Of a stretch of 64,000 nucleotides of DNA, positions 8,234 through 22,529 are shown one piece after another. The notes beneath the pieces are model-generated. The model did no database searches. It was given only the letters and a program-made list of their open reading frames with translations, and was not told the origin of the DNA. Origin of the DNA: Mobilibacterium timonense (GTDB taxonomy: Bacteria; Bacillota; Clostridia; Peptostreptococcales; Anaerovoracaceae). The stretch covers positions 380,117 through 444,116 of the forward strand of contig NZ_FUHN01000008.1 of the NCBI RefSeq assembly GCF_900155555.1, read 5' to 3'. Every line of letters begins with the position of its first letter. Position 1 is the first letter of the stretch. The translations under genes and the position numbers were made by a program.

Positions 8234-9793
8234 ATGATCTATTTCACCCACTACATTCCATGGAATGACGACTCCAGAATGACCTCCGGAGTCAAGGGCA
8301 TCGAAGATATAGAAACGATCTTCTGCCGGAATGGCGCCCGGCTGCTGCCGATACCATCAAAACGCCGGACACACCACCTGACACCAGCCCGGCGCCTGGC
8401 CCTCCAGCGCCCGATACTCCGGACCTGGCAGGAGGCCTGCGGCCCCCTGCTCCCCGGCGACGCGCTGGTCATATTGCTGCCCCTCCACGAAAAATTCGGA
8501 CTCCTCGGCCGCCTGATCCGCAGCCTCAAAAGCCGCGGCATCAAGATCGTATTCCTGGCCGCCGACCTGGAACTGGCACGGCCTGCCACATACTCAGGCC
8601 TGAAAAGGTCCTATGTGACACGCCAGGAACTCTCATACCTGAGGCAGGCCGACGGGATCATCACCCACAACCAGGCCTACACCCGCCTGCTCCAGAGCCG
8701 CGGCATAACCGGGCCGTTCATGGAGTTCGGCCTCTTCGACTACCTGATCCCGGAGGCGCAGCTCCGGAATCTCCAGTCCCGCCGGAACGGCGGGACGCCC
8801 CTCTCTCCGGATGCGGGATCCAGTCAATCAAACGACGGGACGCCCCTCTCTCCAGATGTGGATCCCGGCCAGTCAAACAGCGGGACGCCCCGCCCCGATG
8901 GACCAGTGATCATCGCCACCAACCTGAACCCCGAGAAGGCCGGTTACGCCTACCGCCTCCCGGCAGGCACCGATTTCGTCCTCTACGGACCTAACTACCG
9001 CCCGGAACTTCAGAGGTCCGACGGGGCGTCCGGAGGCTCCGGAGCCTCGGAACGGAGGCCGGAGGACCGTAAGTCCGATAATGCGCCCGGTAGCTCCGGG
9101 GCCTCAGAACTGAGACCGGAGGACCGTAAGTCCGATAATGCGCCCGGTAGCTCCGAAGCCTCAGAACGGAGACCGGAGGACCGGAATTACCACAATGGCG
9201 CCCAGCCATCCGAGCCGGAGGACCGTAAGTCCGATAATGCGCCCGGTAGCTCCGAAGCCTCAGAACCGAGGCCGGAGGACCGGAATTACCACAATGGCGC
9301 CCAGCCATCCGAGCCGGAGGACCGGAAATGCCATGATGAATCCAAGGGCTCCGGAGCCGCGGAACCGAGGCCGGAGGACCGGAATTACAATAATGCTCCC
9401 AGTCCTCATATAACCTACGGTGGGGCATTCCAGGCCGACGACCTTATAGACCACATATCCGGCTCCTACGGACTCCTCTGGGACGGACCTTCCCCCGACA
9501 CCTGCGCCGGACCATACGGAAGCTACATGCGGGTGAACACGCCGCACCGGATAAGCCTTTTCCTGGCCTGCGGCATCCCCGTGATCGTGTGGGACCAGTC
9601 CGCCATGGCGCCGCTGGTGCTGGAAGAGGGCCTGGGCTTCGCTGTCTCCAGCCTCGGGGAGATCCCGGCAAAGCGCATGGAGATCTCCGCCGAGCAGTAC
9701 AGTGAGATGGCAAAAAAAGCCTGGCTCACAGGAGCCAGGCTTCGCCGCGGTGAAAACACCGCGAGTATTCTGGAACAGATCAGACAGCTCTGA
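8234..9793 (+). CDS. Galactofuranosyltransferase-like enzyme with repeat insertions
   Basis: The ends match the beta-1,6-galactofuranosyltransferase/Gtf3-like group: an N-terminal MIYFTHYIPWNDDSRMTSG, a central TNLNPEKAGYAYRLP and FVLYGPNY, and the C-terminal YGLLWDGPSPDTC, NTPHRISLFLACGIPVIVW and a final helix. Such proteins are normally about 330-350 residues; this one is 519. The excess is two in-frame repeat tracts: three 45-base units encoding GTPLSPD-type repeats (from about 8787) and seven PEDR-type units of 57 or 42 bases (9059-9384). Both fall in predicted surface loops, so the catalytic core appears intact. It is the last gene of the plus-strand glycan set. A minus-strand terminator is embedded in its last 80 bases. 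Confidence 0.8.
   Translation: MIYFTHYIPWNDDSRMTSGVKGIEDIETIFCRNGARLLPIPSKRRTHHLTPARRLALQRPILRTWQEACGPLLPGDALVILLPLHEKFGLLGRLIRSLKSRGIKIVFLAADLELARPATYSGLKRSYVTRQELSYLRQADGIITHNQAYTRLLQSRGITGPFMEFGLFDYLIPEAQLRNLQSRRNGGTPLSPDAGSSQSNDGTPLSPDVDPGQSNSGTPRPDGPVIIATNLNPEKAGYAYRLPAGTDFVLYGPNYRPELQRSDGASGGSGASERRPEDRKSDNAPGSSGASELRPEDRKSDNAPGSSEASERRPEDRNYHNGAQPSEPEDRKSDNAPGSSEASEPRPEDRNYHNGAQPSEPEDRKCHDESKGSGAAEPRPEDRNYNNAPSPHITYGGAFQADDLIDHISGSYGLLWDGPSPDTCAGPYGSYMRVNTPHRISLFLACGIPVIVWDQSAMAPLVLEEGLGFAVSSLGEIPAKRMEISAEQYSEMAKKAWLTGARLRRGENTASILEQIRQL
8787..8905 (+). repeat. 45-base in-frame tandem repeat
   Basis: GGGACGCCC recurs at 8792, 8837 and 8882, an exact 45-base spacing. The translated repeats share GTPLSPD or GTPRPDG. 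The tract lies within the galactofuranosyltransferase-like gene, and unit length is a multiple of three. Confidence 0.9.
9059..9384 (+). repeat. 57/42-base mixed minisatellite, in frame
   Basis: CCGGAGGACCG (encoding PEDR) starts at 9059, 9116, 9173, 9215, 9272, 9314 and 9371. The spacings are 57, 57, 42, 57, 42 and 57. Long units read like PEDRKSDNAPGSSEASE and short ones like PEDRNYHNGAQPSE. All spacings are multiples of three, so copy-number change would alter length without breaking the frame. Confidence 0.92.
9712..9741 (-). terminator. Terminator of the arsS operon, inside the convergent gene
   Basis: On the minus strand a perfect stem of at least 9 pairs (GCCTGGCTC, 4-base loop) is followed by seven T. 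It lies 70-100 bases past the arsS stop, within the last codons of the plus-strand glycosyltransferase. A second perfect 7-pair hairpin lies at 9745-9762. Confidence 0.85.
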
Positions 9794-9812
9794 TCTGCAA
9801 ATGCCAGTTTTT

Positions 9813-10787
9813 CTAGCTCGTGGCACCGCCGCAGCTGGAACCCTGGCCGGCAGTGCAGCCGTAACAGTGGTTCGCTAGGGCGATGTGCCTCTTCTGGATG
9901 CCGTGCTCCCTAAGGTCAAAGATGGTCTCCTTTGTGGTCACCGGCAGATCCACGGCCTGGTTGAAATCGCAGTCGAAGATCCGGCCGTCGTATCCGACAG
10001 AGATCTGGTATCTGCACATCATGGCCGGCTCAGACGCCGGATTGTAGGCGTCGAAGAGCGTATTCATGTAGCGCTCAAGGTTGCCTGACCTCTCCAGGAA
10101 GTCTCCGAACCTGCCAACAGGATTATTGGTGATGGCGAAGAGGTTGGAGAAGTGGATGCCGAAGTCCTTTTCAAGCTTCTGGTGATACAGGTCTCCCATG
10201 GATCCCTGGTCCGGAGGCAGAAATGCCCCGCCCGGGTTGTACACCAGGTTGAGGTCAGGGCCGCCAGGCTCTCCGATTCCAAGGGAGTTCAGCTTCTGGA
10301 GCATCTTTATGGAGCTCTGGAAAACGCCCTTGCCGCGCTGACGGTCGGCGTCCTTTTCCCTGTAATACGGAAGTGAGGCGAAAACTGTGACCCCAAGATC
10401 CCTGTAGAGCTCCGGCAGGTCCTCGTATCCCGTCTGCTCCAGGATCGTAAGATTGGTCCTCACGTAGACCGTGTCTGCCAGCTTGCAGCACTCCTTGAGG
10501 AACCATCGGAATTCAGGGTTCATCTCGGGAGCCCCGCCGGTGATGTCGATGGTGGTGAGGTTTTCGTCGTTCCGGAACACGTCCAGACAGCACTCCATCA
10601 CCTCTCTGGACATGGTCTCGGTCCTGTCCGGGCCGCCCTTCACGTGGCAGTGCTTGCACGCCTGATTACATTGCAGGCCCACGTTCACCTGCATGGTAGT
10701 TATGACGTCGGTGTACGCCGCCTCCGGATCGGACATGTGAGGCTCGAAAGCGGGTACAACTGAAAGTCTTTTCAACTGATCGTTCAA
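9813..10787 (-). CDS. arsS: ArsS-type radical SAM protein (arsenosugar biosynthesis family)
   Basis: Radical SAM enzyme with the CNQACKHC cluster motif (Cys40, 44, 47) and the C-terminal DUF3641-type domain ending in CYGCTAGQGSSCGG. That tail is diagnostic of the ArsS family. Characterised ArsS enzymes join a 5'-deoxyadenosyl group to dimethylarsenite on the way to arsenosugars. The residue often encoded as selenocysteine in relatives is Cys here. 324 residues. The start is TTG, with AGGAGGAG about 6 bases upstream overlapping the stop region of the CMD gene, so the two are coupled. No arsenite methyltransferase (ArsM) is in the window. The true substrate in this organism is therefore open. 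It ends the long glycan operon. Confidence 0.88.
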   Translation of the reverse strand: MNDQLKRLSVVPAFEPHMSDPEAAYTDVITTMQVNVGLQCNQACKHCHVKGGPDRTETMSREVMECCLDVFRNDENLTTIDITGGAPEMNPEFRWFLKECCKLADTVYVRTNLTILEQTGYEDLPELYRDLGVTVFASLPYYREKDADRQRGKGVFQSSIKMLQKLNSLGIGEPGGPDLNLVYNPGGAFLPPDQGSMGDLYHQKLEKDFGIHFSNLFAITNNPVGRFGDFLERSGNLERYMNTLFDAYNPASEPAMMCRYQISVGYDGRIFDCDFNQAVDLPVTTKETIFDLREHGIQKRHIALANHCYGCTAGQGSSCGGATS

Positions 10788-10798
10788 AACAGCTCCTC

Positions 10799-11128
10799 CT
10801 AGAACTCAAGCTTTTTTACGATATTCTTCATCTGAAGGCCGTGAGCCAGAGTCGCTCCGCCCCTGATGGCTGCCGCCACGTGGATGGCCTCTGTCATCTG
10901 CTCCTCGTCCACGCCCTTGTTCAGGCAGTCGTTGGTGTAGGAGTCGATGCAGTAAGGGCACTGGAGAGCAGTGGCGACGGCCAGGGCGATGAGGGATTTC
11001 TCCCTTGCGGTGAGCGCACCTTCAGCGAAGACGTCGCCGTAGTAAGCCATGAACTTGTTCCACAGCTCAGGAGCTTCCTCTCCCATGGTCCCGAACCTTG
11101 CCAGATCCTCTTCGTTGTAGTAAGCCAT
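10799..11128 (-). CDS. CMD/AhpD-like peroxidase-type protein associated with ArsS
   Basis: Carboxymuconolactone decarboxylase-fold protein of 109 residues with the redox pair CPYC (Cys57, Cys60) in ALQCPYCIDSYT and a downstream conserved His (EAIHVAAAIRGG). This matches the peroxidase-like protein that accompanies ArsS in other genomes; some relatives use selenocysteine, this one Cys. Start: GGAGG lies 5 bases before the ATG at 11128. A TTG four codons earlier overlaps that site and is unlikely. Eleven bases separate its stop from arsS. Probable role: thiol redox support for the radical SAM step. That role is inference from context. Confidence 0.85.
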   Translation of the reverse strand: MAYYNEEDLARFGTMGEEAPELWNKFMAYYGDVFAEGALTAREKSLIALAVATALQCPYCIDSYTNDCLNKGVDEEQMTEAIHVAAAIRGGATLAHGLQMKNIVKKLEF

Positions 11129-11177
11129 TTTTTCCTCCAATTCAAATTCATCACAAGTGATAAAAGTTTTTATATCA

Positions 11178-11195
11178 AGGCCGGATCTCCGGCCG
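11178..11195 (-). other. Stem-loop between DHHW and CMD genes
   Basis: GGCCGG-ATCT-CCGGCC forms a perfect 6-pair hairpin just past the DHHW stop. It lacks a strong T-run (TTGATATAAAAAC follows on the minus strand). It could be a weak terminator or processing site separating the last two genes of the operon. Confidence 0.45.
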
Positions 11196-11200
11196 GGATA

Positions 11201-12385
11201 TCATTTTCTGCTGAAAAAAGAAAAGTTCCGCCCCTCCAGTGATGCGGGATTATACGCGATCACCACGCAGTCGAAGGAATTCTTTTCCAGGTACTCCCAC
11301 AGCGACACGTCGGTGAAGTCCCTCATGTCCACCGCGGTCACCCGCCCGTAGTTCATGGCCAGAAAAGGCACCATGCACCAGGAGTAGGAATCTCCCACCA
11401 GGAGAATGCTCCCCCTTGATCCTGAGTCTTCATTCACCACTGTGGCGATCGCTCCACGTCCGTTCATGTAGGCGTCGTAGGAGACGCGGTGGTACAGGTC
11501 TCCCCGGGAGATGATGCTCCTGTCCACCAGGGCTTCTCCGAATTTTCCCCTCCTGGAAAAGGTCTTTCCGTCCCTGCGCCAGGTCACCCGGAAGTCCGGG
11601 GAGTTTTGGGGAGTCAGGAGGGTGAAGTCGTCTGTGCCGGCGTATGTGGCTCCGGTCTTCTTTCCAAGGGCTCCGAGGTAGTAGTTCCTGTACGTCTCAG
11701 TGTCGTAGGTCCCCGGATCGAATGCCGCTTCATCGTAGCACAGACCGAAGTCATTGTGGAGCCTGCCGCCCAGGATCCCGGCGGCCATCAGTGCCGCCTC
11801 GGGACGCCAGTGGTGGTCGGTCCGGAAAAACATTTCATCGGCGCTCATCCTGCCATCCATCTCCCGCCGGAGATCCAGAACTTCAACGCCTCCGGCTGTC
11901 AGGCCGCTTATGAGCCTGTCGCAGTTGGAGTCACTGTAGTCGGCGGCACCTCTCTCCAGGCCGCCTTCCATCCCGGTCTTGAAAGGCACCTGGACGTAGA
12001 TCAGAGGGACGCCGCGGGCCTCGAGCTTTTCCTTGAGAGCGACCGTGTTCGCCACGTAGCCGTCGAGGCGACCGTCGCCCAGCCTGTCGATGCCGTAGGA
12101 GAGCTGGCCGTCCTCCAGCTTCGTGACGCCCACCTCCTGGTCCGGTATGTATCTTATCCCGAGGGTCCTGTTGACTCCTCCGTATACGCCCATCCAGAAG
12201 GTCAGGCCCGGGAATTCCTTTGCCAGCGCTGAGTCGAACCGGGATCCCTGTCCCCTGTCGCCCAGCACACCTTGAAAATTCGTGTCACTGTAGGTCAGTA
12301 CCCTGCGGGCCGCCGGTGCAGACACCAGGCACAGCACACTTATGATCAATATGAAAAATACCGCTGTAAATCGCTGTGCCTTCAT
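11201..12385 (-). CDS. DHHW-family AlgX/AlgJ-like O-acetylation protein
   Basis: Extracytoplasmic SGNH-like protein that, with an MBOAT partner, places acetyl groups on exported polysaccharide. An N-terminal membrane anchor or signal (FFILIISVLCLVSAPAA) is followed by the DHHW family core. Visible motifs are FRTDHHWRPEAAL (the Asp-His pair) and ILLVGDSYSWCMVPFLA (the nucleophile-type GDSYS). 394 residues, normal length. It lies 39 bases after the MBOAT gene, the standard two-component arrangement. It follows the Wzy-like gene, so acetylation of the locus glycan is the likely job, possibly opposed by the deacetylase at 4086. Confidence 0.88.
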   Translation of the reverse strand: MKAQRFTAVFFILIISVLCLVSAPAARRVLTYSDTNFQGVLGDRGQGSRFDSALAKEFPGLTFWMGVYGGVNRTLGIRYIPDQEVGVTKLEDGQLSYGIDRLGDGRLDGYVANTVALKEKLEARGVPLIYVQVPFKTGMEGGLERGAADYSDSNCDRLISGLTAGGVEVLDLRREMDGRMSADEMFFRTDHHWRPEAALMAAGILGGRLHNDFGLCYDEAAFDPGTYDTETYRNYYLGALGKKTGATYAGTDDFTLLTPQNSPDFRVTWRRDGKTFSRRGKFGEALVDRSIISRGDLYHRVSYDAYMNGRGAIATVVNEDSGSRGSILLVGDSYSWCMVPFLAMNYGRVTAVDMRDFTDVSLWEYLEKNSFDCVVIAYNPASLEGRNFSFFSRK

Positions 12386-12424
12386 CGATGCTCCTGAGCG
12401 GGATCCCGCCCTTATGATTCTCTA

Positions 12425-14023
12425 TCAGAACTGAAAATATATAAAGGGGCTATAGCCACCTTTAATAACAAAAGAAAGTGATATGACCAGAAGCAATACC
12501 ATTGCGACTCCGAAGATCACCTGATACCAGCCGTCACCGAGCTTTTCCTTCAGCCACGCGCCGGCCGCCGGGACCACCGGGAACGACAGCACGGCCCCCA
12601 CCAGCATCACGTACCAGTACTCCCTCAAGAGGAAGAGAGTGAGCTGATCTCCCGTCACCAGGGCGCCTCCGGCCGCCAGAGCACCGCCGGCACCACCTCC
12701 TGCGCTTCCGGTGAGGCCGGAGAGCCCCGCCATTGAGAGCAGATAATGACCGGCCTGAGGCAGGCTCCCGCACCTGAATATGACCGAGCCCAACAGCATC
12801 ACCAGGATGATGTAGCAGTGGCGGGCGAACCATTTTGCGAGCTTGTTGTGGCTCACGCCATCAGCAATGTGACTTTCTCGAATTCGACCGTCGCTCGTTC
12901 CACTTCTTCGGGCCAGGCCCCCGGCACCGCCGCCTGGGCCCCGATCCACCGTGGTTTTCTTTTCAAAGAAAAGCTTTTCCACCGCCACCAGCGCGAACCA
13001 GTACAGGCCCCAGGCCAGAAAGGTCCAGCTGGCACCGTGCCACAGGCCCGTCAGGAGCCACACCACCAGCAGGTTGAACATGTGCCTGCCCGTTGTGACA
13101 CGGCTCCCTCCCATGGGGATGTACACGTAGTCCCGGAACCAGGTCCCGAGGGAGATGTTCCACCTCCGCCAGTACTGGGTCAGGGAGTCCGAAGCGTACG
13201 GGTAGTTGAAGTTCTCCCGGAACCGGAACCCCAGCATTGCACCCAGTCCGATGGCCATGTCCGAGTACCCGCTGAAGTCGAAATAGATCTGAATGGCAAA
13301 GGCCACCGCACCGACCCAGGCCAGGCCGGTGGTCAGCTCTGCGGCCCCTCCCATGTAGGTCCCGGAGGCGCTCACCCCGAACACGGCGTCGGCCGCCGAG
13401 GCTGCGGTGTTGGCGATGATGACCTTTTTCCCGAGGCCCTGGATGAACCGGCACACTCCCCAGGCAAAAAGATTGGGATCCTGCCGGCGGACGCGGATCT
13501 GCTCAGCAACGTCCCCGAAGCGGACGATCGGCCCGGCTATGAGCTGTGGGAACATGGAGATGTAGAGGGCGACGTTCACCGGGCTTTTCTCGGCGCTCCC
13601 CGGCCGCCTGTAGACGTCAATCACATAGGACAGGGCCTGGAAGGTGAAAAATGAGATCCCCACCGGCAGTGCTATGTCCGGTATAGAGATGCTCATCCCT
13701 GGCAGGCGGTCCAGGTTCTCCAGCGCAAAGCCCAGGTATTTGTAAACGAAAAGAAGGCTCAGATCCCCCGCCACGATGGCGATGAATATGGTCCTGCGGG
13801 CGGCACCTGTGTTACGGTCCATCCAAAGAGTAAGCCCCCAGTTTAGGACCAGGGCTCCGACCATGAGGAACACGAACCGCGGCTCCCCGAACCAGTAGAA
13901 AAAAAGGCTGGCCAGAAGCAGGAAGGCGTTCCGAATCCTGAGGTGCCTGTCAGGTATCAAATAGTAGACGGCCAGCGTCACGGGAAGAAAAAGAAAAATG
14001 AAGGTCACGCTGGAGAATATCAC
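12425..14023 (-). CDS. MBOAT family O-acyltransferase (AlgI/PatA-like)
   Basis: Polytopic membrane acyltransferase that moves acetyl groups from the cytoplasm across the membrane to a DHHW/AlgX-type partner. The family N-terminus IFSSVTFIFLFLPVTL, FFYWFGEP, FFTFQALSYVIDVYR, YWRRWNISLGTWFRDYVYIP and the catalytic His region GLWHGASWTFLAWG are all present. Start: GTG at 14023 overlaps the upstream stop (GTGA) and is preceded by GGAGG with 6-base spacing. It begins exactly at the conserved N-terminus. A longer frame to 14068 only adds the tail of the preceding gene in another phase. About 532 residues. A Gly/Ala-rich segment near residues 430-445 is a loop expansion. Confidence 0.92.
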   Translation of the reverse strand: MIFSSVTFIFLFLPVTLAVYYLIPDRHLRIRNAFLLLASLFFYWFGEPRFVFLMVGALVLNWGLTLWMDRNTGAARRTIFIAIVAGDLSLLFVYKYLGFALENLDRLPGMSISIPDIALPVGISFFTFQALSYVIDVYRRPGSAEKSPVNVALYISMFPQLIAGPIVRFGDVAEQIRVRRQDPNLFAWGVCRFIQGLGKKVIIANTAASAADAVFGVSASGTYMGGAAELTTGLAWVGAVAFAIQIYFDFSGYSDMAIGLGAMLGFRFRENFNYPYASDSLTQYWRRWNISLGTWFRDYVYIPMGGSRVTTGRHMFNLLVVWLLTGLWHGASWTFLAWGLYWFALVAVEKLFFEKKTTVDRGPGGGAGGLARRSGTSDGRIRESHIADGVSHNKLAKWFARHCYIILVMLLGSVIFRCGSLPQAGHYLLSMAGLSGLTGSAGGGAGGALAAGGALVTGDQLTLFLLREYWYVMLVGAVLSFPVVPAAGAWLKEKLGDGWYQVIFGVAMVLLLVISLSFVIKGGYSPFIYFQF

Positions 14024-15324
14024 GGCCGGCCTCCATTGAATCTGATCATGTCCTTCATCAGCATGCATACCATGAACATGGTGATGTACTGGTACGGGAC
14101 GATGGTCACGGCAAAGAGCACTAAGAAACAGATCTCAAAGGCGATGTGGGCGTAGCTCCCGGATCTGATGCTCCCGGATGCGCCCCTGACTATGGCCCAG
14201 GCGTAAGGTATGAAAAGCATGAGCCCGCCCTCCGCCAGCACCTCCACGGGCGAATTGCTGTAGCCGAGGTTGCTTAGCCTCCATGGTGAGGCGAACCTGG
14301 CGATGTACGGGGTGTTTTCGAAGCCCACTCCCCAGACAGGACTGCTGAGCCAGGCCTTGAAGCCCGACCTGATGTCGTCCATCCTTATCGACGAAGACTC
14401 CGTGGTCGTCTTGTTCCACAGGAGCAGCACCACGAAAGCGAGCACCAGCGCAGCCAGTAGTATCATCTTCTTCTCCTGGGCCAGGTGCTCCCTGAAGGAG
14501 TCCGCGGATCTGCGCTTTCTCCTGACGTCCGGCAGGTTTTTCATTATCCACATGAGTGCCAGCAGGAACCAGCCGGTGGCGGTGAACGTCGTCAGCATCG
14601 CCAGTGCCAGGATCACCCTGCACCACCTGTGGGTCTTCGGGCTCCTGCCGTCCTGTGTGTAGACGTCGGTCATGAAGGCAAGGGAAAAGATGTAGTTGGC
14701 CATAGGTCCCTCTACGAATATCGCCGAGTTCCTGGCCACGTAGCCTGTTATAAACCACTGGGTCTCGTAGTAGATGTACATGAAATGTGTCCGCCAGATG
14801 ATCTTCCCGTCGTCCGACCAGTCCACGTACACGCTCCCGGACCACGGATATGGGATCAAGTGGAGCAAAGAGAGCAAGAACCAGCAGACCACGGAGACTC
14901 CCGCAACTATCACGACCACGTCGCGAAAGGCCGCGAGGAGCGAAGCGGCTTTTTCCCCGCCGCCACGGGACTCCAGAAATATTACGAATGCGCACAGCAA
15001 AAGCCCGCATCGCAGGGCGCGGCGGTAGTTCACGGGATCCAGCAGGACGAACAGCACCAGGTAGAGCATGACGATGATCCCCGTCTTCACGGAGGACCAC
15101 CGGATGCCAGGCACGCCCTTTTCTCCGTCGTTTCTGAAGGCCAGCGCCATGAGGCAAAGCCCCAGTATCAGCGCCGTCGCCCGGTTCACCCAGGGGCCGT
15201 AGTCCCGGAGGTGCATCCAGATGCTTCGGCACTGTATCACCATGGTGGCGGCGGCCACGTAGGTGACGGCGAGCCATACGATGCTGAAGCCTGTATTCTG
15301 TTTTGCTGTGGTTTTTTCAGTCAA
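14020..15324 (-). CDS. O-antigen polymerase/ligase-like membrane protein (Wzy-type)
   Basis: Integral membrane protein with roughly 10-12 hydrophobic segments and a large external loop (IIWRTHFMYIYYETQWF region). It has the Wzy_C-like signature PVWGVGFENTPYI followed by YSNSPVEVLAEGGLMLFIP. The probable role is polymerising or ligating undecaprenyl-linked units outside the membrane. The start is TTG with AGGAG 6 bases upstream. That TTG overlaps the stop of the preceding glycosyltransferase (TTGA), and its own stop overlaps the MBOAT start, so translation is coupled on both sides. 434 residues. Wzy proteins are poorly conserved, so the assignment rests on topology, the C-terminal motif and context. 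Confidence 0.75.
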   Translation of the reverse strand: MTEKTTAKQNTGFSIVWLAVTYVAAATMVIQCRSIWMHLRDYGPWVNRATALILGLCLMALAFRNDGEKGVPGIRWSSVKTGIIVMLYLVLFVLLDPVNYRRALRCGLLLCAFVIFLESRGGGEKAASLLAAFRDVVVIVAGVSVVCWFLLSLLHLIPYPWSGSVYVDWSDDGKIIWRTHFMYIYYETQWFITGYVARNSAIFVEGPMANYIFSLAFMTDVYTQDGRSPKTHRWCRVILALAMLTTFTATGWFLLALMWIMKNLPDVRRKRRSADSFREHLAQEKKMILLAALVLAFVVLLLWNKTTTESSSIRMDDIRSGFKAWLSSPVWGVGFENTPYIARFASPWRLSNLGYSNSPVEVLAEGGLMLFIPYAWAIVRGASGSIRSGSYAHIAFEICFLVLFAVTIVPYQYITMFMVCMLMKDMIRFNGGRP

Positions 15325-17453
15325 TATATGCTCCTGATAAGCCTTGCCGTCTCTCTGATGTCCAGGCCTCTCGCCTCGATCTCTCCCGAGTTGTCCGTAC
15401 GTACGGTGTCAAGCTCCATGAGGGCCTCCTTCCAGGATCCCCTGTCACCCAGAGATATGCGGCGGAAGTTCTCCGCCACCCGGCTCTCCGTAACCACGCC
15501 TGTGGAGGCCACCACCGTAAGGCCGTTTGCCTGTGCCTCCAGTGCAGCGATGGAAAAGCCCTCGAACAGGCTCGGAAGGGCGAACACGTCCATGGCCTGG
15601 TAGTAGTCCTCCGGATTCTCCACGTTGCCGGTGAAGATCACCAGCCCGTCCATGGAGCTCCCGCGCACTTTATTTTCCAGCTCCCTGCGCTGGTCACCCT
15701 CTCCGACGAGCAAAAGCCTGATGTCTTCTCCCGGATACTCTCTCCGGATCTCATCTGCCAGGGAGAGGAGAAAGCCGGGATTTTTCTGCCCAGTCAGCCT
15801 CCCCACGAAGCCGATGACCCGCGCGCCATCCGGGATGTCCAGCTCCCGGCGCATCTCGCGCCTCTTCGCCGGGTCGAAGGCGAAACGCCTTACATCCACC
15901 CCGTTTTTCACGACCTGGAGCCTCTCCCTGCAGATCTTTTCCGGGAACATCCACTCCCCTGCGGCCTGTGAACAGGCCAGCCATCGGGAGGGATACCTCG
16001 TGAGTACCCTCCTGGAAAAAAGGGACGTCAGCGTATGCGACAGATTCGGGATGCCGGCGCAGTGGGCGTGGACCACGATCTCCGGGATACCGGCCCGGTT
16101 CGCCAGCTTGCAGTACTTCCGGAGCATGGTCACGCTTCCCGAGTGGATGTGGACAGCATCCCATCTTGATGCCCTGAGGACATCCCTCATGGCTCGTGTC
16201 TCCCGCCTCCTGGCGCCTCCCGGGCGGAACGGGCAGTCTCTCGTGAACACCCTGTGGCCCAGGGTCTCCATCTCCCTCACTATCCTCTGGTTATCGCAGT
16301 AATATGGTGTGAAGAGGTCCACCTGGAGACCACTGGTGTCCATTACCTTCAGGATCTCGGATACGAAGATCTCCTCTCCCCCGAAGGAAATGGGTTCGCC
16401 GAAGACCTGGAGGATTTTCTTTTCTTTTGTTGTATTATCGCGGTCACCGGCCTGTCCGCTTTCGGGCACTGACGCCCACGCCCGGCCGCCTGGTATCTCA
16501 TCAGCGCGTCCTTCCCCTGGTCCGGCCTCCGGATAGCGTATCTCCGGGCAGAAATCCAGCCCCGCCCGGGTGCCCCGGAACATGGCGCCGAGCCGCTTCC
16601 TTTTTTCATGAGCGGTAAAGACGATGCGGAACCAGTGGCCTATCAGCCTCCTGGTCTCATAGATGAAGCCGTTCAGGCCCTCTCTCCTGTAGAGATACAC
16701 GTCGTTCCGGTACATGGTCTCGTACCTGCTTACCGGACGGTCCTCATCGGCAGCGATGTTGGCGCCCCTGTTTTCCCCGGTCATGTGGAATACGCGGCTG
16801 CCGTTCACCAGATATGAAGGATACACCCTGGAGATCCGACGGGTGAACTCCCAGTCGTCTGTCCAGGTGCCGAACTCCCTTATAGGCAGGCCCATGTTTT
16901 TTATCACGCTGGCCGGGACGAGCAGCGAAACGAAGGACGCCATCACCACTGGTACGGCCGGGCTCAGAAAGTCCCTGACCTTCATTGTCAGGCTCCTCCT
17001 CTGGATGTTCATCCTGTTGAGGGTGCCGTCCTTCCACAGCGCCTGGCTGGAGAGAAAACCGTATCTGTCTCGTTTGTTCTCGTGGACCTCCAGCAGGGCC
17101 TCCAGGGCCCCGGGCTCCGGCTGGGTGTCGTCGTCCATGACCCACACCAGCTCGTATCCCAGCCTAACGGCCTCTTCCATGCCGAGGCTGAAGCCGCCGG
17201 CCCCGCCCAGGTTCTCCCCTGTGTCCAGGTAGATGATCCTGCCTCCATCTTTCAGAAAGACTCGGATCTCTTCCACCTCCTGCACCTGAGGTATCTCGCG
17301 GATGGAGCTTCGTCCGGCGCCCCCGTTGTCCACCACGATGATGTCCATTTTCCCCGCAGCGGTCTGGAGACTCAGGCACCTGAGACACTGAGCCAAGAGC
17401 TCATCTCTTTTGTACGTGACCACCACCGCGGCAGTCTGCCTGACTTCTCTCAT
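15321..17453 (-). CDS. Two-domain glycosyltransferase (GT2-GT4 fusion)
   Basis: About 710 residues with two catalytic domains. Residues 1 to about 290 are a GT2 of the rhamnosyl/galactofuranosyl type: VVVTYKRDELL, IIVVDNGGAG, VWVMDDDTQPEPGALEAL and FGTWTDDWEFTRR. Residues from about 345 to the end are a GT4: ILQVFGEPISFGGEE, GFVGRLTGQKNPGF and the E-x7-E motif EGFSIAALEAQANGL. A 50-residue Gly/Pro/Glu-rich linker joins them. The ATG at 17453 overlaps the upstream stop (TGATG); a longer frame reaching 17615 is only the end of the neighbouring gene in another phase. It probably adds two successive sugars. Donors are unknown. Confidence 0.9.
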   Translation of the reverse strand: MREVRQTAAVVVTYKRDELLAQCLRCLSLQTAAGKMDIIVVDNGGAGRSSIREIPQVQEVEEIRVFLKDGGRIIYLDTGENLGGAGGFSLGMEEAVRLGYELVWVMDDDTQPEPGALEALLEVHENKRDRYGFLSSQALWKDGTLNRMNIQRRSLTMKVRDFLSPAVPVVMASFVSLLVPASVIKNMGLPIREFGTWTDDWEFTRRISRVYPSYLVNGSRVFHMTGENRGANIAADEDRPVSRYETMYRNDVYLYRREGLNGFIYETRRLIGHWFRIVFTAHEKRKRLGAMFRGTRAGLDFCPEIRYPEAGPGEGRADEIPGGRAWASVPESGQAGDRDNTTKEKKILQVFGEPISFGGEEIFVSEILKVMDTSGLQVDLFTPYYCDNQRIVREMETLGHRVFTRDCPFRPGGARRRETRAMRDVLRASRWDAVHIHSGSVTMLRKYCKLANRAGIPEIVVHAHCAGIPNLSHTLTSLFSRRVLTRYPSRWLACSQAAGEWMFPEKICRERLQVVKNGVDVRRFAFDPAKRREMRRELDIPDGARVIGFVGRLTGQKNPGFLLSLADEIRREYPGEDIRLLLVGEGDQRRELENKVRGSSMDGLVIFTGNVENPEDYYQAMDVFALPSLFEGFSIAALEAQANGLTVVASTGVVTESRVAENFRRISLGDRGSWKEALMELDTVRTDNSGEIEARGLDIRETARLIRSIY

Positions 17454-19510
17454 CACTTCATCTTCCTCACGGCCTCTGCGGTGAACATCTTGAAAAATAT
17501 CTTCGCGTCCAGAGCCAGGCTCGCGTTGTCCGCGTAAAAGAGTTCCATCCTCTGCCTGCTGCCGTCGTGGTATCCCGCCCAGTCCCGGCCGTAGGCCTGC
17601 CAGTACCCCATCCATCCGGGCCTGACGCTCTGGAGCCGCTCCAGCTCCTCACCTGTATATTTCTCTGTTTCCTCCGGCAGGATGGGCCTCGGGCCGATGA
17701 TGCTCAGCCTGCCCTGGAGCACGTTCACGAGCTGCGGCAGCTCGTCCAGTCCCCACCTACGGATAAAACCCCCTCCGGGTATCACCCGCGGGTCTTCCTC
17801 CAGCCTGTATTCTTCACGGTATTCACGGCGCTGCACCGGATCCAGGGAGCTTTCGATCTCCTCAGCGTCTTCTTCCATGGTCCTGAACTTCCATATGACC
17901 ACAGGCTTTCCGTGGTATCCGATGCGCTCCTGCCGATAAAAGACCTTTCCCCTTCCCCGTACCTTCACGGCGACCGCGGTGATCACCATGGCCGGAGAGA
18001 GTATCACCAGCCCGACGACGCCGAGCACGATGTCGAGGGTCCTCTTCGCAAAAAGATACCCCTTGTTTTTCTCCCTCCAGTTCCGGCGGTCCGGGCAGAG
18101 CCTCTCGTACTCCATCTCCCCCTGGTAACTGTCCATGCCCTTCATGTACATCCTGCGCATCCTGGCCATGTTCCTCATCACCAGGAGCTTGTGGGCGGTG
18201 GAGCCCCTGTATCTCCTGTCGGAGGCCAGGATCCTGTGCTCCGCCATCCCGGGCGTGATGCCCATTTCCTTTAAGTTCAGCGAAAACTGCAGGTCCTCCA
18301 TTATCCTCAGCTCCGGGAATCCCCCGACCTTCTCGAAAAGTTCTTTTCTTATGAAGATCCCCTGATCCCCGAATACTATGTGTCTCCTGCTGGCCCTGAA
18401 GTTGGAGATCCATTTATTTGTATACATGAAAAAGTTCCTGCTGTCGAACCGCACCCCGAAGCACCCCCACTGGTGGTCCTTCAGGACGGCCTTTATCTCC
18501 CCAGCAGGATCATCGGGAAGCTGGCAGTCCCCGTGGAAAAAGAAGAGTATCTCTCCCGCGGCGGCCTCCGCCCCGGCGTTGAGCTGCGCTCCTCTCCCTC
18601 TCGGGCTGCTGATGATGCGGATCCCGTCGTCATCTGACATCGCCTCTCTCAGCCTCTCCAGGGTGCAGTCCGTGCTGCCTCCGTCCACCAGGATGATCTC
18701 CCGCGGCTTCCGGATCTTGCGGCACTGGCGGATAACCGACTCCGCCATCTCCTCCTCGTTGAAGAGGGGCACCACGGCGGAGATCAGCGGATACCTCCTC
18801 GTGAACTCCATGGTGCAGGACATTCCGGTGAAGAAGCCATCCAGCTCATCTTCTCCCAGCGCCCTGAACCTCTCCAGGTCCTCTGGCACGTCGATGTCGA
18901 AGGCCTCCGGCAGGAGCTCCCATGTAACGTCTCCGGGTATCCTCTCCAGCGTCTCCTCCATCACGGCGCCGTGGCTGTATCTCTCCAGGGAAAAAGCCTC
19001 TCTGCACGGCGTTCCGGCCCCCACCAGGCAGTAGCCCCCGTCCTCTGTGGGAGTGAACACCATGTCCCTCTCCTCCAGGCAGCGGAAGGCATCCATGATG
19101 TCCCCGCATGTCAGCTGAGGCGAGTCGGTGCCGGTCAGGACGCAGCTCCTGTATCCCATGCCCAGCACGTCCCTGATGGCGTTGTCCATCCGCTCCCCAA
19201 GGCCCTCTCCCCTCTGGGAAAAGAAGTCCATCTTCACGCCCGCTTCTTCGGCCATGGCCTCGAGACCCCTCCGCTGCGAGGGTCCTCCGCTCCAGGCAAA
19301 AAACAGGGCGACCCCCTTTTCCCGGAGCCTCCCTGCCCTCCTGAGCCCGTCTCTGATCAGCGCCATCTGGAGTTCGAGGCACTGATCATCATCGTAAAAG
19401 GGCTTCATTCTGGTCTTCACCTTCCCCCTCTCAGGGGCCTTGGTGAAGATGATATACGCCTTGTCTTCTTTTGCTTTCTTTTCTGTTGTCTCCCCTGTTC
19501 TCTCTGCCAT
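17453..19510 (-). CDS. Three-domain protein: ArsS-associated transferases 1 and 2 fused to sugar phosphotransferase
   Basis: About 685 residues with three recognisable parts. Residues 18-220 match the DUF2064/TIGR04282 nucleotidyltransferase-like transferase 1 (FTKAPERGKVKTRM, LTGTDSPQLT, FTPTEDGGYCLVGA). Residues 240-460 match the GT2 of the TIGR04283 type, transferase 2 (SAVVPLFNEEE, ILVDGGSTDCT, RGRGAQLNAGAEAA, VFGDQGIFIRKELF). Residues 485-685 are a bacterial sugar transferase that loads a sugar-1-phosphate onto undecaprenyl phosphate: RTLDIVLGVVGLVILSP membrane hairpin, VIWKFRTM, DELPQLVNVLQG, GPRP. The first two domains are normally separate partners of ArsS. Here they are tied to the initiating step of glycan assembly. 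ATG at 19510 overlaps the preceding stop (TGATG). The fusion is read directly; its chemistry is inference. Confidence 0.88.
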   Translation of the reverse strand: MAERTGETTEKKAKEDKAYIIFTKAPERGKVKTRMKPFYDDDQCLELQMALIRDGLRRAGRLREKGVALFFAWSGGPSQRRGLEAMAEEAGVKMDFFSQRGEGLGERMDNAIRDVLGMGYRSCVLTGTDSPQLTCGDIMDAFRCLEERDMVFTPTEDGGYCLVGAGTPCREAFSLERYSHGAVMEETLERIPGDVTWELLPEAFDIDVPEDLERFRALGEDELDGFFTGMSCTMEFTRRYPLISAVVPLFNEEEMAESVIRQCRKIRKPREIILVDGGSTDCTLERLREAMSDDDGIRIISSPRGRGAQLNAGAEAAAGEILFFFHGDCQLPDDPAGEIKAVLKDHQWGCFGVRFDSRNFFMYTNKWISNFRASRRHIVFGDQGIFIRKELFEKVGGFPELRIMEDLQFSLNLKEMGITPGMAEHRILASDRRYRGSTAHKLLVMRNMARMRRMYMKGMDSYQGEMEYERLCPDRRNWREKNKGYLFAKRTLDIVLGVVGLVILSPAMVITAVAVKVRGRGKVFYRQERIGYHGKPVVIWKFRTMEEDAEEIESSLDPVQRREYREEYRLEEDPRVIPGGGFIRRWGLDELPQLVNVLQGRLSIIGPRPILPEETEKYTGEELERLQSVRPGWMGYWQAYGRDWAGYHDGSRQRMELFYADNASLALDAKIFFKMFTAEAVRKMK

Positions 19511-20511
19511 CACTTGTATTTCGTCATCATTCTGTTCACATACGATGTCTTAACGGCCGGCTTCTCGTCTATCCCGAGCATCAGGGAAAGGGTGTGCCGA
19601 AGGTCGCCGCCGTTCCTGGCGAACTGCCCGGCGCAGGAGGCACAGCAGGTGCAGAGGGTCTTTTCCCCGCCGGCCGGGTACTTCTTCCCTATGGTCTCCG
19701 CAGATCCCTTTGCGAGCTCAGGCTCGCAGGCCCCTGCGATGCCGCCAAGGCCACAGCAGTTGACCTCATCTTCCTTCTCCGGTCTGTATCCGAGAAGCTC
19801 TGAAATGTCATCGTACCACTCTCCGGTCTCCCTGTCGGGACACGGCATGAAGATCTTCAGGCCCTGAGGCTTTTCCACCTCGATGCCCAGTTCCAGCAGC
19901 CGGCGGTACACGCTGACCACCCTGATGCCAAGCCTGTCCTTCAGATAGTAATAGCAGTTGGGGCACATGGTGACGATCTCCTCGGCGCCCGCCTCCTGCA
20001 GGTTTTTCCTTATGGTCCCGATGATGCGCTCTTCTTCCTTTTCCAGCCCCAGGAGCCCGATCGGCTTGCCGCAGCAGTCGTAGGCGATGCCGTAGCCATA
20101 TTTTTTCTTCATCATGCCGGCAAAGGCCTTGTTGGTCTTGGGGAATAGAGAAGGAAAATTGCACCCCGGGAAGATCACCGTCTTCCCTGCGGCCTTCTTG
20201 TAGTTCCGGAAAATATAGTCGCTCTTTTCCTTCAGCATGCCGGTGTAACGTCCCGGATCGTAGATCCCGTTCTCCCGGGCCACGTGCTCCCGGCGCATCT
20301 CGAGAAAAAGCTCAGTGCCCTTTATGTCAACCGGGCACACCTCGTCGCACTTCCCGCATATGAAGCAGTGGTACGCCAGGGGCGCCAGCTTCTCCACGTC
20401 GCTCAGCTCGCATCCGTATTCAGTGAGGAAGCTGCAGTTCTCCCTGCAGGCACCGCAGTGAATGCAGGAGCTGGTCATGTTTCTGTATCTGATATAGTCG
20501 AAATCCATCAT
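19510..20511 (-). CDS. Fe-S protein with CCG domains (HdrD/GlpC-like)
   Basis: Cytoplasmic iron-sulfur protein of 333 residues. Two 4Fe-4S ferredoxin motifs come first (CIHCGACRENC near residue 16 and CFICGKCDEVCP near residue 49). Two Cys-rich CCG domains of the heterodisulfide-reductase type follow (GCNFPS with DCCGKP, and the later NCCGLGG with CTCCASC). Such proteins pass electrons to or from thiols/disulfides or flavin partners. The stop overlaps the three-domain transferase gene. In this operon it may supply electrons to the radical SAM/CMD chemistry. No dedicated flavin partner is encoded nearby, so that is inference. Confidence 0.85.
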   Translation of the reverse strand: MMDFDYIRYRNMTSSCIHCGACRENCSFLTEYGCELSDVEKLAPLAYHCFICGKCDEVCPVDIKGTELFLEMRREHVARENGIYDPGRYTGMLKEKSDYIFRNYKKAAGKTVIFPGCNFPSLFPKTNKAFAGMMKKKYGYGIAYDCCGKPIGLLGLEKEEERIIGTIRKNLQEAGAEEIVTMCPNCYYYLKDRLGIRVVSVYRRLLELGIEVEKPQGLKIFMPCPDRETGEWYDDISELLGYRPEKEDEVNCCGLGGIAGACEPELAKGSAETIGKKYPAGGEKTLCTCCASCAGQFARNGGDLRHTLSLMLGIDEKPAVKTSYVNRMMTKYK

Positions 20512-20526
20512 CTGTCTCTCTTGCCT

Positions 20527-21303
20527 TCAGTCGTTCTTTTTCTTCTCGCCGCCAGCCATTCCTCCACCGGTGGCATTTCCGTCCGGCGCAGCCTCGCCGC
20601 CTTCCTCCGGCCCGACGTACTTCTTTTTCAGGAGCCTGCTGGCCACTATCACCACTGCGGCGATCACAACCGTAGCCAGGGCGTAGAAAAGCCTGTTCGT
20701 CCCGTCGATCACAGCGTAAGTCCCGAATGTGTACATCGCCGTGCCCGGGATCATGAATACAAAGGTCCCGAGGGAATACTTCGCCAGGCTCATGTCGGTG
20801 ATCCCGTAGGCGAAGTTCTGCAGGTTATACGGAAAGATGGGCACCAGCCTGGTGACCATCAGCACCGTCATCTCGTTCTTGGTCTTTTCGTCGAAGAGCA
20901 GCCGGTCGATGTACTTGTTTTTCATCACCTTGTCTCTCAGGCTGTCCCTCAGGAAAAAGCGTCCCACGAGAAAAGCCAGGATCGCGCCGATGGTAGCGGC
21001 TACGGAGCACAGGAGCGTCCCTATCCAGGGACCGAAAAGCGTTCCGGCTATTATGGCGAAGGTCACTCCCGGCAGGGCCAGGACGACGCATCCCACGATC
21101 ATCACCACCATGTAGATGGCAACGACTTCGAGGTAGTTATCCTTCATGGTCTCCTGGAGCCGCTGGTACCACTGTGGGTCCGTGAAGTAGTCTGACCAGC
21201 CGTATCTCCTGTTCAGGAGGAACACAATGAGAATTGCGGCCGCGAATATCACGGGTTTCACCAGCTTTTTCCAGCTGGTTCTGTTTGTTTCTTTCATTTG
21301 CAT
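20527..21303 (-). CDS. TVP38/TMEM64 (VTT domain) membrane protein
   Basis: DedA-like VTT-domain protein of 258 residues. The core shows the family features: GVTFAIIAGTLFGPWIGTLL, the re-entrant FLVGRFFLRDSLRD, and RLVPIFPYNLQNFAYGITDMS. The C-terminal tail is soluble, rich in Gly, Glu and Lys. VTT proteins are linked to lipid (including undecaprenyl phosphate) scrambling, which would fit a glycan operon. They are also frequent neighbours of the ArsS gene set. It is 15 bases upstream of the Fe-S gene and 12 downstream of a paralogue. Confidence 0.88.
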   Translation of the reverse strand: MQMKETNRTSWKKLVKPVIFAAAILIVFLLNRRYGWSDYFTDPQWYQRLQETMKDNYLEVVAIYMVVMIVGCVVLALPGVTFAIIAGTLFGPWIGTLLCSVAATIGAILAFLVGRFFLRDSLRDKVMKNKYIDRLLFDEKTKNEMTVLMVTRLVPIFPYNLQNFAYGITDMSLAKYSLGTFVFMIPGTAMYTFGTYAVIDGTNRLFYALATVVIAAVVIVASRLLKKKYVGPEEGGEAAPDGNATGGGMAGGEKKKND

Positions 21304-21315
21304 CGCACCGCCAGA

Positions 21316-22119
21316 TTACTCGGCTTCGTTCTCTCCTGACTCGGTCCCGCTGCCTGACGCACCTTCGCCGCCCTTTTTTCCAAGGCTCCTGCGGATACCC
21401 TTGCCCTGCCTTTCGTTGTAGATCTGCTTCATGAGGACTACGAGAGCCGAGAGTGCAAAAAGGATCATCAGGCCCATCACCAGCTTGCGGCTCCCTCCGG
21501 TCAGCATGCCACCCACGTATGAGTAGACGATGGTGGCCGGGAGCTGCCCGATGCCTGTGGCGATGAAAAAGCTCCAGAACGACATGGAGGTCAGCCCGGC
21601 GGCGTAGCTCACGATGTCGAAGGAAATGAACGGCAGGAGCCTGGCGATGAGGATGCTCATGGCTCCGTGCTTGTCGAAGAACCGGTCCACCTGCTCAAGG
21701 CCAGCCTTGGATGTGAGCTTTATCACGGCGTCTCTTCCCAGGACCCTTCCGATCCAGAAGCACACCGCGGCTCCCGCCATGGCGCTGGTCCAGGACAGGA
21801 TCGCGCCCTGCCACCAACCGAAAAGGCTGGCGTTGGCAAAGGTGATGAGAAAGGCCGGCAGCGGCGCCGCCACCGACTGGAGTATCATCAGCAGGAAGGA
21901 TATAGCCATGGCGTATTTTCCATATGACTGTACGAAGGCCTCCACCTGGTGGAAGTCTCCCGTGGCGAACATGTGGAACACCCTGTTCAGTCCGCTGTGA
22001 ACGGACGGGATCAGGTAGTAGCTCGCAAAGGCTCCTGCGATCAGGGCGATGACGACGATCCTCTGGATCCACCTGGATCTTCTGCTCTTCCCGGTTATCT
22101 TTGTATTTTCTTCGGTCAT
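21316..22119 (-). CDS. TVP38/TMEM64 (VTT domain) membrane protein
   Basis: Second VTT-domain protein, 267 residues, first gene of the long minus-strand operon. Residues 20-40 form a membrane segment; the VTT core has LPAFLITFANASLFGWWQG, FWIGRVLGRDAVIK and RLLPFISFDIVSYAAGLTSMS. The tail is charged and Gly/Glu-rich like its neighbour's. GAGGAAATCAC provides the ribosome-binding site before the ATG. The two VTT proteins are clearly divergent from one another, so this is not a recent duplication; they may form a heteromer. A sigma-A-type promoter lies at 22257-22285. Confidence 0.88.
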   Translation of the reverse strand: MTEENTKITGKSRRSRWIQRIVVIALIAGAFASYYLIPSVHSGLNRVFHMFATGDFHQVEAFVQSYGKYAMAISFLLMILQSVAAPLPAFLITFANASLFGWWQGAILSWTSAMAGAAVCFWIGRVLGRDAVIKLTSKAGLEQVDRFFDKHGAMSILIARLLPFISFDIVSYAAGLTSMSFWSFFIATGIGQLPATIVYSYVGGMLTGGSRKLVMGLMILFALSALVVLMKQIYNERQGKGIRRSLGKKGGEGASGSGTESGENEAE

Positions 22120-22256
22120 GTGATTTCCTCAAATCTTCTGTATAAAAAGATCTTTCTGCCGCTCCGCAGGTTTATGCGGGCGTTTTTAAAAGTATATCGG
22201 TAATACCGTTCCGCGTCACGGTCTCCGGTAATAATGCATCACCGTTATTTGTTTTT

Positions 22257-22285
22257 TCTATAGTTGACAGACGCAATATTCTCAA
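22257..22285 (-). promoter_or_regulatory. Sigma-A-type promoter of the VTT/arsS operon
   Basis: Minus-strand TTGAGA (22285-22280), 17-base spacer, TATAGA (22262-22257). It is about 140 bases ahead of the first VTT gene and just past the surface-protein terminator. Confidence 0.65.
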
Positions 22286-22286
22286 G

Positions 22287-22332
22287 TAAATCAAAAGGAG
22301 CGGCCGCACCCGTCAGGTGAAACCGCCCCTCC
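22287..22332 (-). terminator. Terminator of the surface-protein gene
   Basis: An interrupted GC-rich stem at 22297-22332 (GGGGCGG pairs with CCGCTCC, CACC with GGTG) is followed on the minus strand by TTTTGATTTACTT. Confidence 0.65.
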
Positions 22333-22529
22333 CAAGCATTTTCATACGACCGGTCCCCATCTGGATCATCGGTGGACGGGGACACAATGTTCTTTTTCCA
22401 TCTTTCCGGTCACAGTTATTTTAGTTTAAGGTCTCTAATGAATCAAAAAAGTCTTTTTGATTCATTCAGCACCTCACATAACTATTATGCATAGCTGTGC
22501 AAGGAGAAATGGATCGATCCACGGAAGTA

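Follow-up and report, generated by a model that had tools for sequence, protein, structure and literature searches.

How does a set of genes of the arsenosugar type come to stand within an operon for a surface polysaccharide, and does the product of its radical S-adenosylmethionine (SAM) enzyme, ArsS, become part of the glycan? The question is raised by a 64,000-nucleotide stretch of the Mobilibacterium timonense genome (contig NZ_FUHN01000008.1, positions 380,117 to 444,116; hereafter the window). On its minus strand, ten genes, closely spaced or slightly overlapping, lead from VTT1 (start at 22119) to ArsS (stop at 9813; Table 1). Pfam and NCBIfam profile matches bore out the named genes of the original prediction, in the order and on the strand proposed. 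Throughout, G000 denotes the window genome, G076 its sister species, g1 their genus and g82 a second genus of the same family; T1 and T2 are the TIGR04282 and TIGR04283 "arsenosugar glycosyltransferase" domains, and PHPT is a phosphoglycosyl transferase. As the window brings together a PHPT (PF02397), a Wzx flippase (PF01943, 110.3 bits) and a Wzy-type protein (PF04932, 38.0 bits), it can be firmly predicted to hold a surface-glycan locus of the Wzx/Wzy type that has merged with a gene set of the arsenosugar type. Entry of the ArsS product into this glycan is quite possible, though somewhat less than probable.

The genes of the run are closely packed. Overlaps of at most 4 nucleotides (nt) join the CCG gene to the fusion gene, the fusion gene to GT2-GT4, and GT2-GT4 to Wzy, provided that GT2-GT4 starts at 17456/17453, which inspection of the start codons makes probable, and not at the listed 17615; with the start so moved, the several stop/start overlaps described earlier were recovered. 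Wzy shares 49 nt with MBOAT, and gaps of 12, 15, 39 and 11 nt separate VTT1 from VTT2, VTT2 from CCG, MBOAT from DHHW, and CMD from ArsS. The widest gap of the run lies between DHHW and CMD: it measures 60 nt, or 72 nt with the ATG at 11128 as the start of CMD, which is likelier than one at 11140.

The most distinctive product of the run is the protein in which T1 (nucleotidyltransferase-like, residues ~19-214), T2 (a GT-A glycosyltransferase, ~244-465) and PHPT (~485-680) are fused. T1 and T2 both exceed the cut-offs of their families (156.1 bits for 134, and 200.7 bits for 182). The structural model of T1, with pLDDT mostly near 90, found its best solved match in 3cgx (Z 27.5, root-mean-square deviation (rmsd) 2.3, 225 aligned residues), and also aligned with 2i5e (Z 19.9, rmsd 2.8, 206 aligned), with the 3-phosphoglycerate guanylyltransferase 7p97 (Z 19.0, rmsd 2.9, 194 aligned) and with Rv2983 (6bwh; Z 18.5, rmsd 2.6, 195 aligned). 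The predicted fold of T1 is that of a CofC/FbiD-like nucleotidyltransferase; the CofC model itself, TIGR03552, gave only 31.1 of the 105 bits of its cut-off. The GT-A fold of T2 aligned with WrtF (9omm; Z 21.9, rmsd 4.8, 213 aligned). PHPT matched PF02397 with 170.9 bits (cut-off 27), and these last 200 residues align with the undecaprenyl-phosphate galactose phosphotransferase 8t53 (130 bits), the alignment spanning the blocks DPR, LDELPQL and GPRPI. The full-length WbaP model TIGR03022 gave 199.5 of 403 bits, since only the last part of WbaP is present. PHPT is missing from 12 of the 14 aligned rows and was for that reason modelled poorly (pLDDT mostly below 50); its assignment rests on sequence. 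To our knowledge, the roles of T1 and T2 themselves rest on gene neighbourhood. Since T1T2 is fused in the window to an enzyme that starts lipid-linked assembly of a glycan, it is likely to act in such assembly. A full-length match to the three-domain protein was found in two of 393 genomes of the order (G000 and G076) and, among 391 genomes of the class, in G000 only; the T1T2 fusion without PHPT is found in other relatives too.

G076, the only other g1 genome seen, holds the locus in the same gene order. Between the two species, nonsynonymous to synonymous ratios (dN/dS, Nei-Gojobori, 12 genes) were 0.012 for CMD, 0.036 for ArsS and 0.057-0.147 for the ten others; several of the genes have a dS close to 1 or above it. 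These data indicate that the locus is under purifying selection and that CMD and ArsS are the most conserved of the 12 genes. In the G076 assembly, MBOAT lacks approximately residues 204-494 and DHHW is interrupted; if these breaks are real, acetylation would be dispensable while ArsS and CMD are the most tightly held.

We then consider the family. ArsS exceeded its cut-off in 7 of the 197 genomes surveyed. All 47 g82 genomes were searched, and ArsS was present in 8 and T1T2 in 18 (in G409 and G450 the two parts match separately within one longer frame). Both occur together in seven genomes: in five they lie on one contig (G422, G452, G462, G465 and G436, the ArsS of the latter being of a distant, N-terminally extended type), and in G409 and G446 on separate contigs, those with ArsS measuring 28.9 and 5.1 kb. 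G422, G452 and G462 share a one-strand order that begins with CMD, ArsS, a large surface-type protein, CCG, Wzy, a cadherin-like protein, PHPT, DUF4422 and GT2, and continues through further genes including glycosyltransferases to Wzx, a Gtf3-like glycosyltransferase, T1T2, YdjY, VTT1, VTT2 and an APH kinase. The large surface-type protein carries rhodanese repeats in G422, is a close relative in G452 and only partly similar in G462; in G452 and G462, UDP-galactopyranose mutase precedes T1T2. The cluster of G465 is small and lacks PHPT (CCG, T1T2, APH, VTT1, VTT2, YdjY, two more genes and CMD-ArsS). PHPT lies within 10.4 kb of T1T2 in 9 of the 18 T1T2 genomes, four of which have ArsS (G422, G452, G462 and G409). 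The linkage of ArsS to glycan genes is thus conserved in both g1 genomes and, in a different order, in g82, which contradicts the refuting condition that relatives would not conserve it.

Is this the usual setting of ArsS? In a collection of named genomes, at least 590 stretches with a confirmed ArsS relative were found and the best 80 examined, with neighbour models derived from loci of g1 and g82 (Wzx and Wzy on few sequences; ArsM, MBOAT, DHHW and the Gtf3-like enzyme on one each). The counts among these 80 are rough, with some weak or general-GT2 matches for T2 and T1 and many loci ending at contig ends: CMD lay near ArsS in 77, T1 in 47, T2 in 35, ArsM in 32 (most of them Bacteroidota), VTT1 in 8, CCG and rhodanese in 6 each, VTT2 and YdjY in 5 each, and APH in 3. 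PHPT was near ArsS in four, always on the opposite strand, and the profile models for Wzx, Wzy, MBOAT, DHHW, DUF4422 and the Gtf3-like enzyme matched in none of the 80. The profile matches are solid ground for concluding that the ArsS of these 80 named loci does not stand in such a merger with glycan genes. The loci of Eubacterium sp. ER2 (L090; VTT2-CCG-VTT1-CMD-ArsS-T1T2-APH) and Muricomes intestini (L091; VTT2-CCG-CMD-ArsS-T1T2) resemble the window in holding CMD, ArsS, CCG, VTT and a fused T1T2 on one strand; unlike the window, they have no PHPT, Wzx or Wzy model match within ~10 kb, and their T1T2 is not fused to PHPT. The Bacteroidota CMD-ArsS set likewise has T1 and T2 nearby, but as separate frames, often with ArsM near ArsS, and without a Wzx or Wzy match. 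In the Lachnospiraceae locus L089, five glycosyltransferase genes lie directly ahead of VTT1-CMD-ArsS, perhaps a third case of the linkage. Loci for capsule or exopolysaccharide (EPS) of the WbaP-initiated Wzx/Wzy type share with the window a galactose-phosphotransferase-like PHPT, Wzx, a Wzy-like protein, glycosyltransferases and MBOAT, whereas the window PHPT is fused behind T1T2 and the window operon includes the ArsS set. Judged by titles and the opening lines of abstracts, searches of PMC full text, a scope outside which subscription journals mostly lie, listed no paper on arsenosugar genes in a surface-glycan locus.

In an ArsS tree of 30 rows, in which 13 of the 80 named loci were used and the forks cited are below the starred support level, the g82 polysaccharide-linked rows fall into one clade together with G465 and L089 (94/86), and the window ArsS is placed apart from a group of 12 rows (88/86; next fork 90/89), among them runs that lack PHPT. 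Short of proof, the tree favours a history in which ArsS and glycan genes would have been joined separately, more than once. The CMD and VTT1 trees were poorly resolved.

What ArsS acts on bears directly on the second half of our question. The window ArsS adjoins CMD (the TIGR04169 partner) across the 11-nt gap, and in ten aligned rows, none of them a TGA form, the CX3CX2C motif (C40-C44-C47) and the C-terminal SSCGG (S317-G321) are invariant. From family membership, it is predicted to adenosylate arsenic; a passage of PMC12159101 describes a radical SAM enzyme that does so in oxo-arsenosugar biosynthesis, the oxo-arsenosugars being made by cyanobacteria. Elsewhere in the window genome, an ArsM-like gene (G000:C3) reaches 206.7 bits with NF008823 (205.8 as protein; cut-off 263) and 93.5 of 400 with NF038099, and it is 95% identical between the two g1 species. 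At E 1e-25 or better, 4 of the 27 genomes examined had such a gene (G000, G076, G333 and G032), and in G032 ArsM and ArsS occupy a single 680-aa frame (G032:C12, L044:8537-10579). The conserved g1 gene and the G032 frame speak for arsenic as the substrate. Another ArsS of G032 (G032:C43) is extended by a long N-terminal part, as seen at L041:8966-11005, L042:8398-10479, L043:9962-13504 and L084:14892-16937; the extension looks by eye like a metallophosphoesterase, and Pfam gave no match to it in the two scanned (L041 and L043). Two ArsS matches hold one in-frame TGA, consistent with selenocysteine forms (L004, G082:C21; L060, G446:C11). A nucleoside hydrolase (PF01156) near ArsS in two relatives (L035:9365-10288 and L037:17790-19043), with a PadR domain in one, is a candidate for removing adenine after ArsS.

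Put together, these parts suggest the following pathway. An ArsM-like enzyme encoded elsewhere in the genome would methylate arsenic, onto which ArsS would move the 5'-deoxyadenosyl group of SAM; further enzymes would remove adenine and phosphorylate the sugar, and T1 would produce a nucleotide-activated sugar. The fused PHPT would start an undecaprenyl-linked acceptor, probably with an ordinary hexose-1-phosphate, and T2 would add the activated sugar to it. GT2-GT4, GT2 and the Gtf3-like enzyme would lengthen the chain, which MBOAT and DHHW may acetylate, Wzx would flip and the Wzy-like protein would polymerise or ligate. VTT1 and VTT2 may carry lipid or substrate across the membrane, and CCG, CMD and YdjY may provide redox chemistry, the least certain step. 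The product would be a glycan or glycolipid with dimethylarsinoyl-ribose or a similar ArsS-made sugar. We infer the order of the steps after ArsS (adenine loss, activation and glycosylation) with the help of general background. The whole reading, in which the repeat unit of a surface polysaccharide contains a ribose modified with arsenic, or otherwise made by ArsS, that the single T1-T2-PHPT protein has activated and loaded, a combination perhaps reached repeatedly, is tentative and on balance doubtful.

Several observations weigh against it. Eleven of the 18 g82 T1T2 genomes have no ArsS over cut-off, including five with T1T2 and PHPT (G423, G428, G395, G459 and G450; completeness 95, 95, 94, 78 and 77%); as five of nine T1T2-PHPT clusters stand in genomes lacking ArsS, the T1T2 glycan does not require it. 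In favour of the reading, ArsS occurs in 7 of the 18 g82 genomes with T1T2 and in 1 of the 29 others (Fisher p 0.003); the association weakens to p 0.018 in the 32 genomes at least 80% complete and to 0.30 in the 19 at least 90% complete, and these tests treat related species as independent draws, which they are not. G032 and G333, which belong to two other genera, carry both ArsS and T1T2, but on different contigs (70-185 kb), and no T1T2 match was seen in the ArsS stretches read from G149, G104, G082 and G108. CMD-ArsS stands at the edge of both arrangements, and in the window behind the widest gap. An ArsM-like gene at E 1e-25 was found in none of 19 g82 genomes examined, eight of them with ArsS (74-99% complete), and the APH-kinase model had no match in the window. 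Finally, PHPT aligns best to WbaP-type enzymes and resembles galactose-1-phosphate transferases; it may load an ordinary sugar. Of the earlier proposal that an ArsS sugar is loaded on undecaprenyl phosphate, the gene unit thus stands, conserved in two genera, but the presence of the ArsS product in the glycan was not established, given the clusters without ArsS and the galactose-type PHPT.

These data are about equally compatible with a reading in which T1T2, CCG, VTT1, VTT2 and YdjY serve a glycan with a sugar, ordinary or unusual, not made by ArsS, and CMD-ArsS is an adjacent detoxification pair that makes a small soluble arsenosugar. This is a serious possibility, if still short of probable. 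It would account for the ArsS-less T1T2-PHPT clusters, for the unlinked genes of G032 and G333 and for the position of CMD-ArsS at the cluster edge beyond the largest gap. In the E. coli ydjXYZ-ynjABCDE run (L183), two VTT proteins stand with relatives of YdjY and rhodanese, as ydjX-ydjY-ydjZ-ynjA-ynjE, and ynjA is AhpD-like by annotation. Unlike the window, the 16 kb searched there have no ArsS, T1T2 or glycan model match, and ynjA is not matched by the CMD model; part of the accessory set therefore exists without ArsS or T1T2. What such a reading leaves unaccounted for is the linkage of ArsS to T1T2 in five g82 genomes and both g1 species, the one-strand runs of T1T2, VTT, CCG and ArsS in Eubacterium sp. 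ER2 and Muricomes intestini, which have no PHPT match, and the presence of T1 and T2 near ArsS in 47 and 35 of the best 80 of at least 590 loci (some T2 being general GT2).

An arsenolipid of the membrane is improbable. Arsenosugars are known from cyanobacteria and algae in the form of small molecules or lipids; here PHPT and T2 would build an undecaprenyl- or glycerol-linked arsenosugar glycolipid while Wzx and Wzy serve another glycan. The cyanobacterial oxo-arsenosugar pathway (ArsM and ArsS) shares with the window an ArsS as named by NCBIfam; its products are small and soluble or lipids, in contrast to the undecaprenyl-linked glycan proposed for the window. The physical fusion of T1, T2 and PHPT fits a lipid product, as do the arsenolipids of cyanobacteria named in a title that PMC12159101 cites, but Wzy, GT2-GT4 and MBOAT lie within the same tightly spaced run, and g82 keeps the same parts as separate genes of one polysaccharide cluster. 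Less probable still is a glycan with a non-arsenic, adenosyl-derived sugar, ArsS using selenium, sulfur or carbon, for although the eight g82 ArsS genomes yielded no ArsM-like gene at the threshold used, rhodanese-repeat proteins occur in several ArsS-linked clusters and in-frame TGA matches, as in selenocysteine forms, occur in two family genomes, the ten aligned rows (no TGA form included) share the same Cys motifs, and the ArsM evidence from g1 and G032 points to arsenic.

The operon faces a convergent set of plus-strand genes (Table 1), which the original prediction took to complete the pathway. Profile matches agreed with the identities given to the deacetylase, the lipoprotein, GT2 and Wzx. 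Membership in the unit was supported for YdjY, Wzx, the Gtf3-like enzyme and GT2, whose homologues lie in one-strand g82 clusters, but not for the deacetylase: none of the g82 clusters read gave a match to it, nor to MBOAT or DHHW. In the 11 g82 T1T2 clusters read, the YdjY homologue adjoins VTT1 in six and VTT2 in two. The protein encoded at 8234-9793 had no Pfam match; its fold is of the Gtf3/GtfC type, and its earlier description as a galactofuranose transferase was dropped. UDP-galactopyranose mutase was found in all six genomes searched and in five of seven PHPT-type g82 clusters read (one being the query source), and not in the window; galactofuranose in the glycan is possible. VTT1 and VTT2 were rejected as UptA transporters (NF052604, cut-off 250: 40.5 bits for VTT1, none at E 0.001 for VTT2). 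The VTT1 family model gave 276 bits with E. coli ydjZ and 110 with ydjX, and the VTT2 model 208 and 124 bits; YdjX and YdjZ are described in a passage of PMC7818093 as DedA proteins close to Tmem41b. As for CCG, it scored 110.9 bits with NF045663, below the cut-off of 530. Rhodanese-repeat surface-type proteins with fn3/transglutaminase or Big_2/LRR domains were also seen at L082:2514-5831 and L089:12252-17180, one or two genes from ArsS, and at L079:10915-13026, by an ArsS-less T1T2 cluster.

Table 1. Features of the Mobilibacterium timonense window, with window coordinates and supporting matches.
Feature	Position	Strand	Evidence
VTT1, VTT/DedA-family membrane protein	21316..22119	-	PF09335 109.7 bits; 90% identity to G076 copy
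VTT2, second VTT/DedA-family membrane protein	20527..21303	-	PF09335 92.2 bits; 86% in G076
CCG-domain Fe-S protein	19510..20511	-	PF02754 47.8 bits
Trifunctional fusion T1-T2-PHPT, 686 aa	17453..19513	-	TIGR04282, TIGR04283, PF02397
GT2-GT4 two-domain glycosyltransferase	15321..17456	-	PF00535, PF13439, PF00534
Wzy/O-antigen-ligase-like membrane protein	14020..15324	-	PF04932 (Wzy_C) 38.0 bits, cut-off 31.7
MBOAT O-acyltransferase	12425..14068	-	PF03062 95.1 bits
ALGX/DHHW acetyltransferase-associated SGNH-like protein	11201..12385	-	PF16822 57.7 bits, PF14286 26.8 bits (cut-off 25)
CMD/AhpD-like protein, ArsS partner	10799..11140	-	TIGR04169 192 bits, cut-off 120
ArsS radical SAM enzyme, Cys form	9813..10787	-	TIGR04167 411 bits, cut-off 300
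Intrinsic terminator of operon	9712..9740	-	GC-rich 9-bp stem and seven T
Polysaccharide deacetylase	4086..4910	+	PF01522 69.3 bits; matched in G076
YdjY-domain lipoprotein-like protein	4991..5650	+	NF040466 119.8 bits, cut-off 50
GT2 glycosyltransferase	5647..6783	+	PF00535 71.6 bits
Wzx flippase	6752..8212	+	PF01943 110.3 bits
GT-B glycosyltransferase, Gtf3/GtfC type	8234..9793	+	Foldseek 9htx_B E 5.7e-13, 3qkw_A E 4.5e-12; model pLDDT 62

The ends of the operon differ in how well their signals were recovered. The terminator predicted at 9712 was confirmed by its stem and T-run and by the folding of the surrounding 60-nt stretch (z -6.4), although the scan for such signals did not list it; it sits within the last part of the convergent gene 8234-9793, and G076 retains its hairpin but differs at one T of the T-run. 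Of the promoter placed at 22285, a TTGAGA-17-TATAGA element can be read by eye, but no site there passed the promoter scan, whose nearest match was 22219-22191; the transcription start is putative and unproven. Between DHHW and CMD, the palindrome ATCACTTGTGAT that precedes CMD is lost in G076, and a small GC hairpin and CCTTGATATA directly before the palindrome are kept. It is conceivable that CMD-ArsS has a regulated promoter of its own. A block strongly conserved between the window and G076 lies at 22288-22370, between the gene for a MucBP/TIG adhesin (22530-26192) and VTT1, and forms a hairpin with a 15-pair outer stem and a T-rich tail. The hairpin part (63 nt) folds with z -4.1 and the surrounding 139-nt stretch with z -1.5, which is not significant; in G076 the hairpin occurs once more at a distance of 14 kb. 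Located 3' of the adhesin gene, the block would fit a terminator or an attenuator. A known RNA in this 5' region was discarded, as the whole window gave no Rfam match and, at a relaxed threshold, chance-level matches only; a LoaP-type leader, as treated in a passage of PMC12691694, was considered and dropped without test. A permease gene at 28145-29407, 6 kb from the operon, matched CitMHS with 308 bits and ArsB with 84 bits.

Taken together, the occurrence of the T1-T2-PHPT fusion in a glycan operon suggests an order of steps that can be assayed, namely activation, transfer and loading on a lipid carrier, and points to candidate genera in which an arsenic-bearing polysaccharide may be sought. 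Whether some bacteria display an arsenic-modified sugar at their surface thereby becomes testable. If they do, a metalloid sugar would be added to bacterial surface chemistry, providing an unexpected sink for arsenic, and metalloid detoxification would have been repurposed as cell-surface chemistry.

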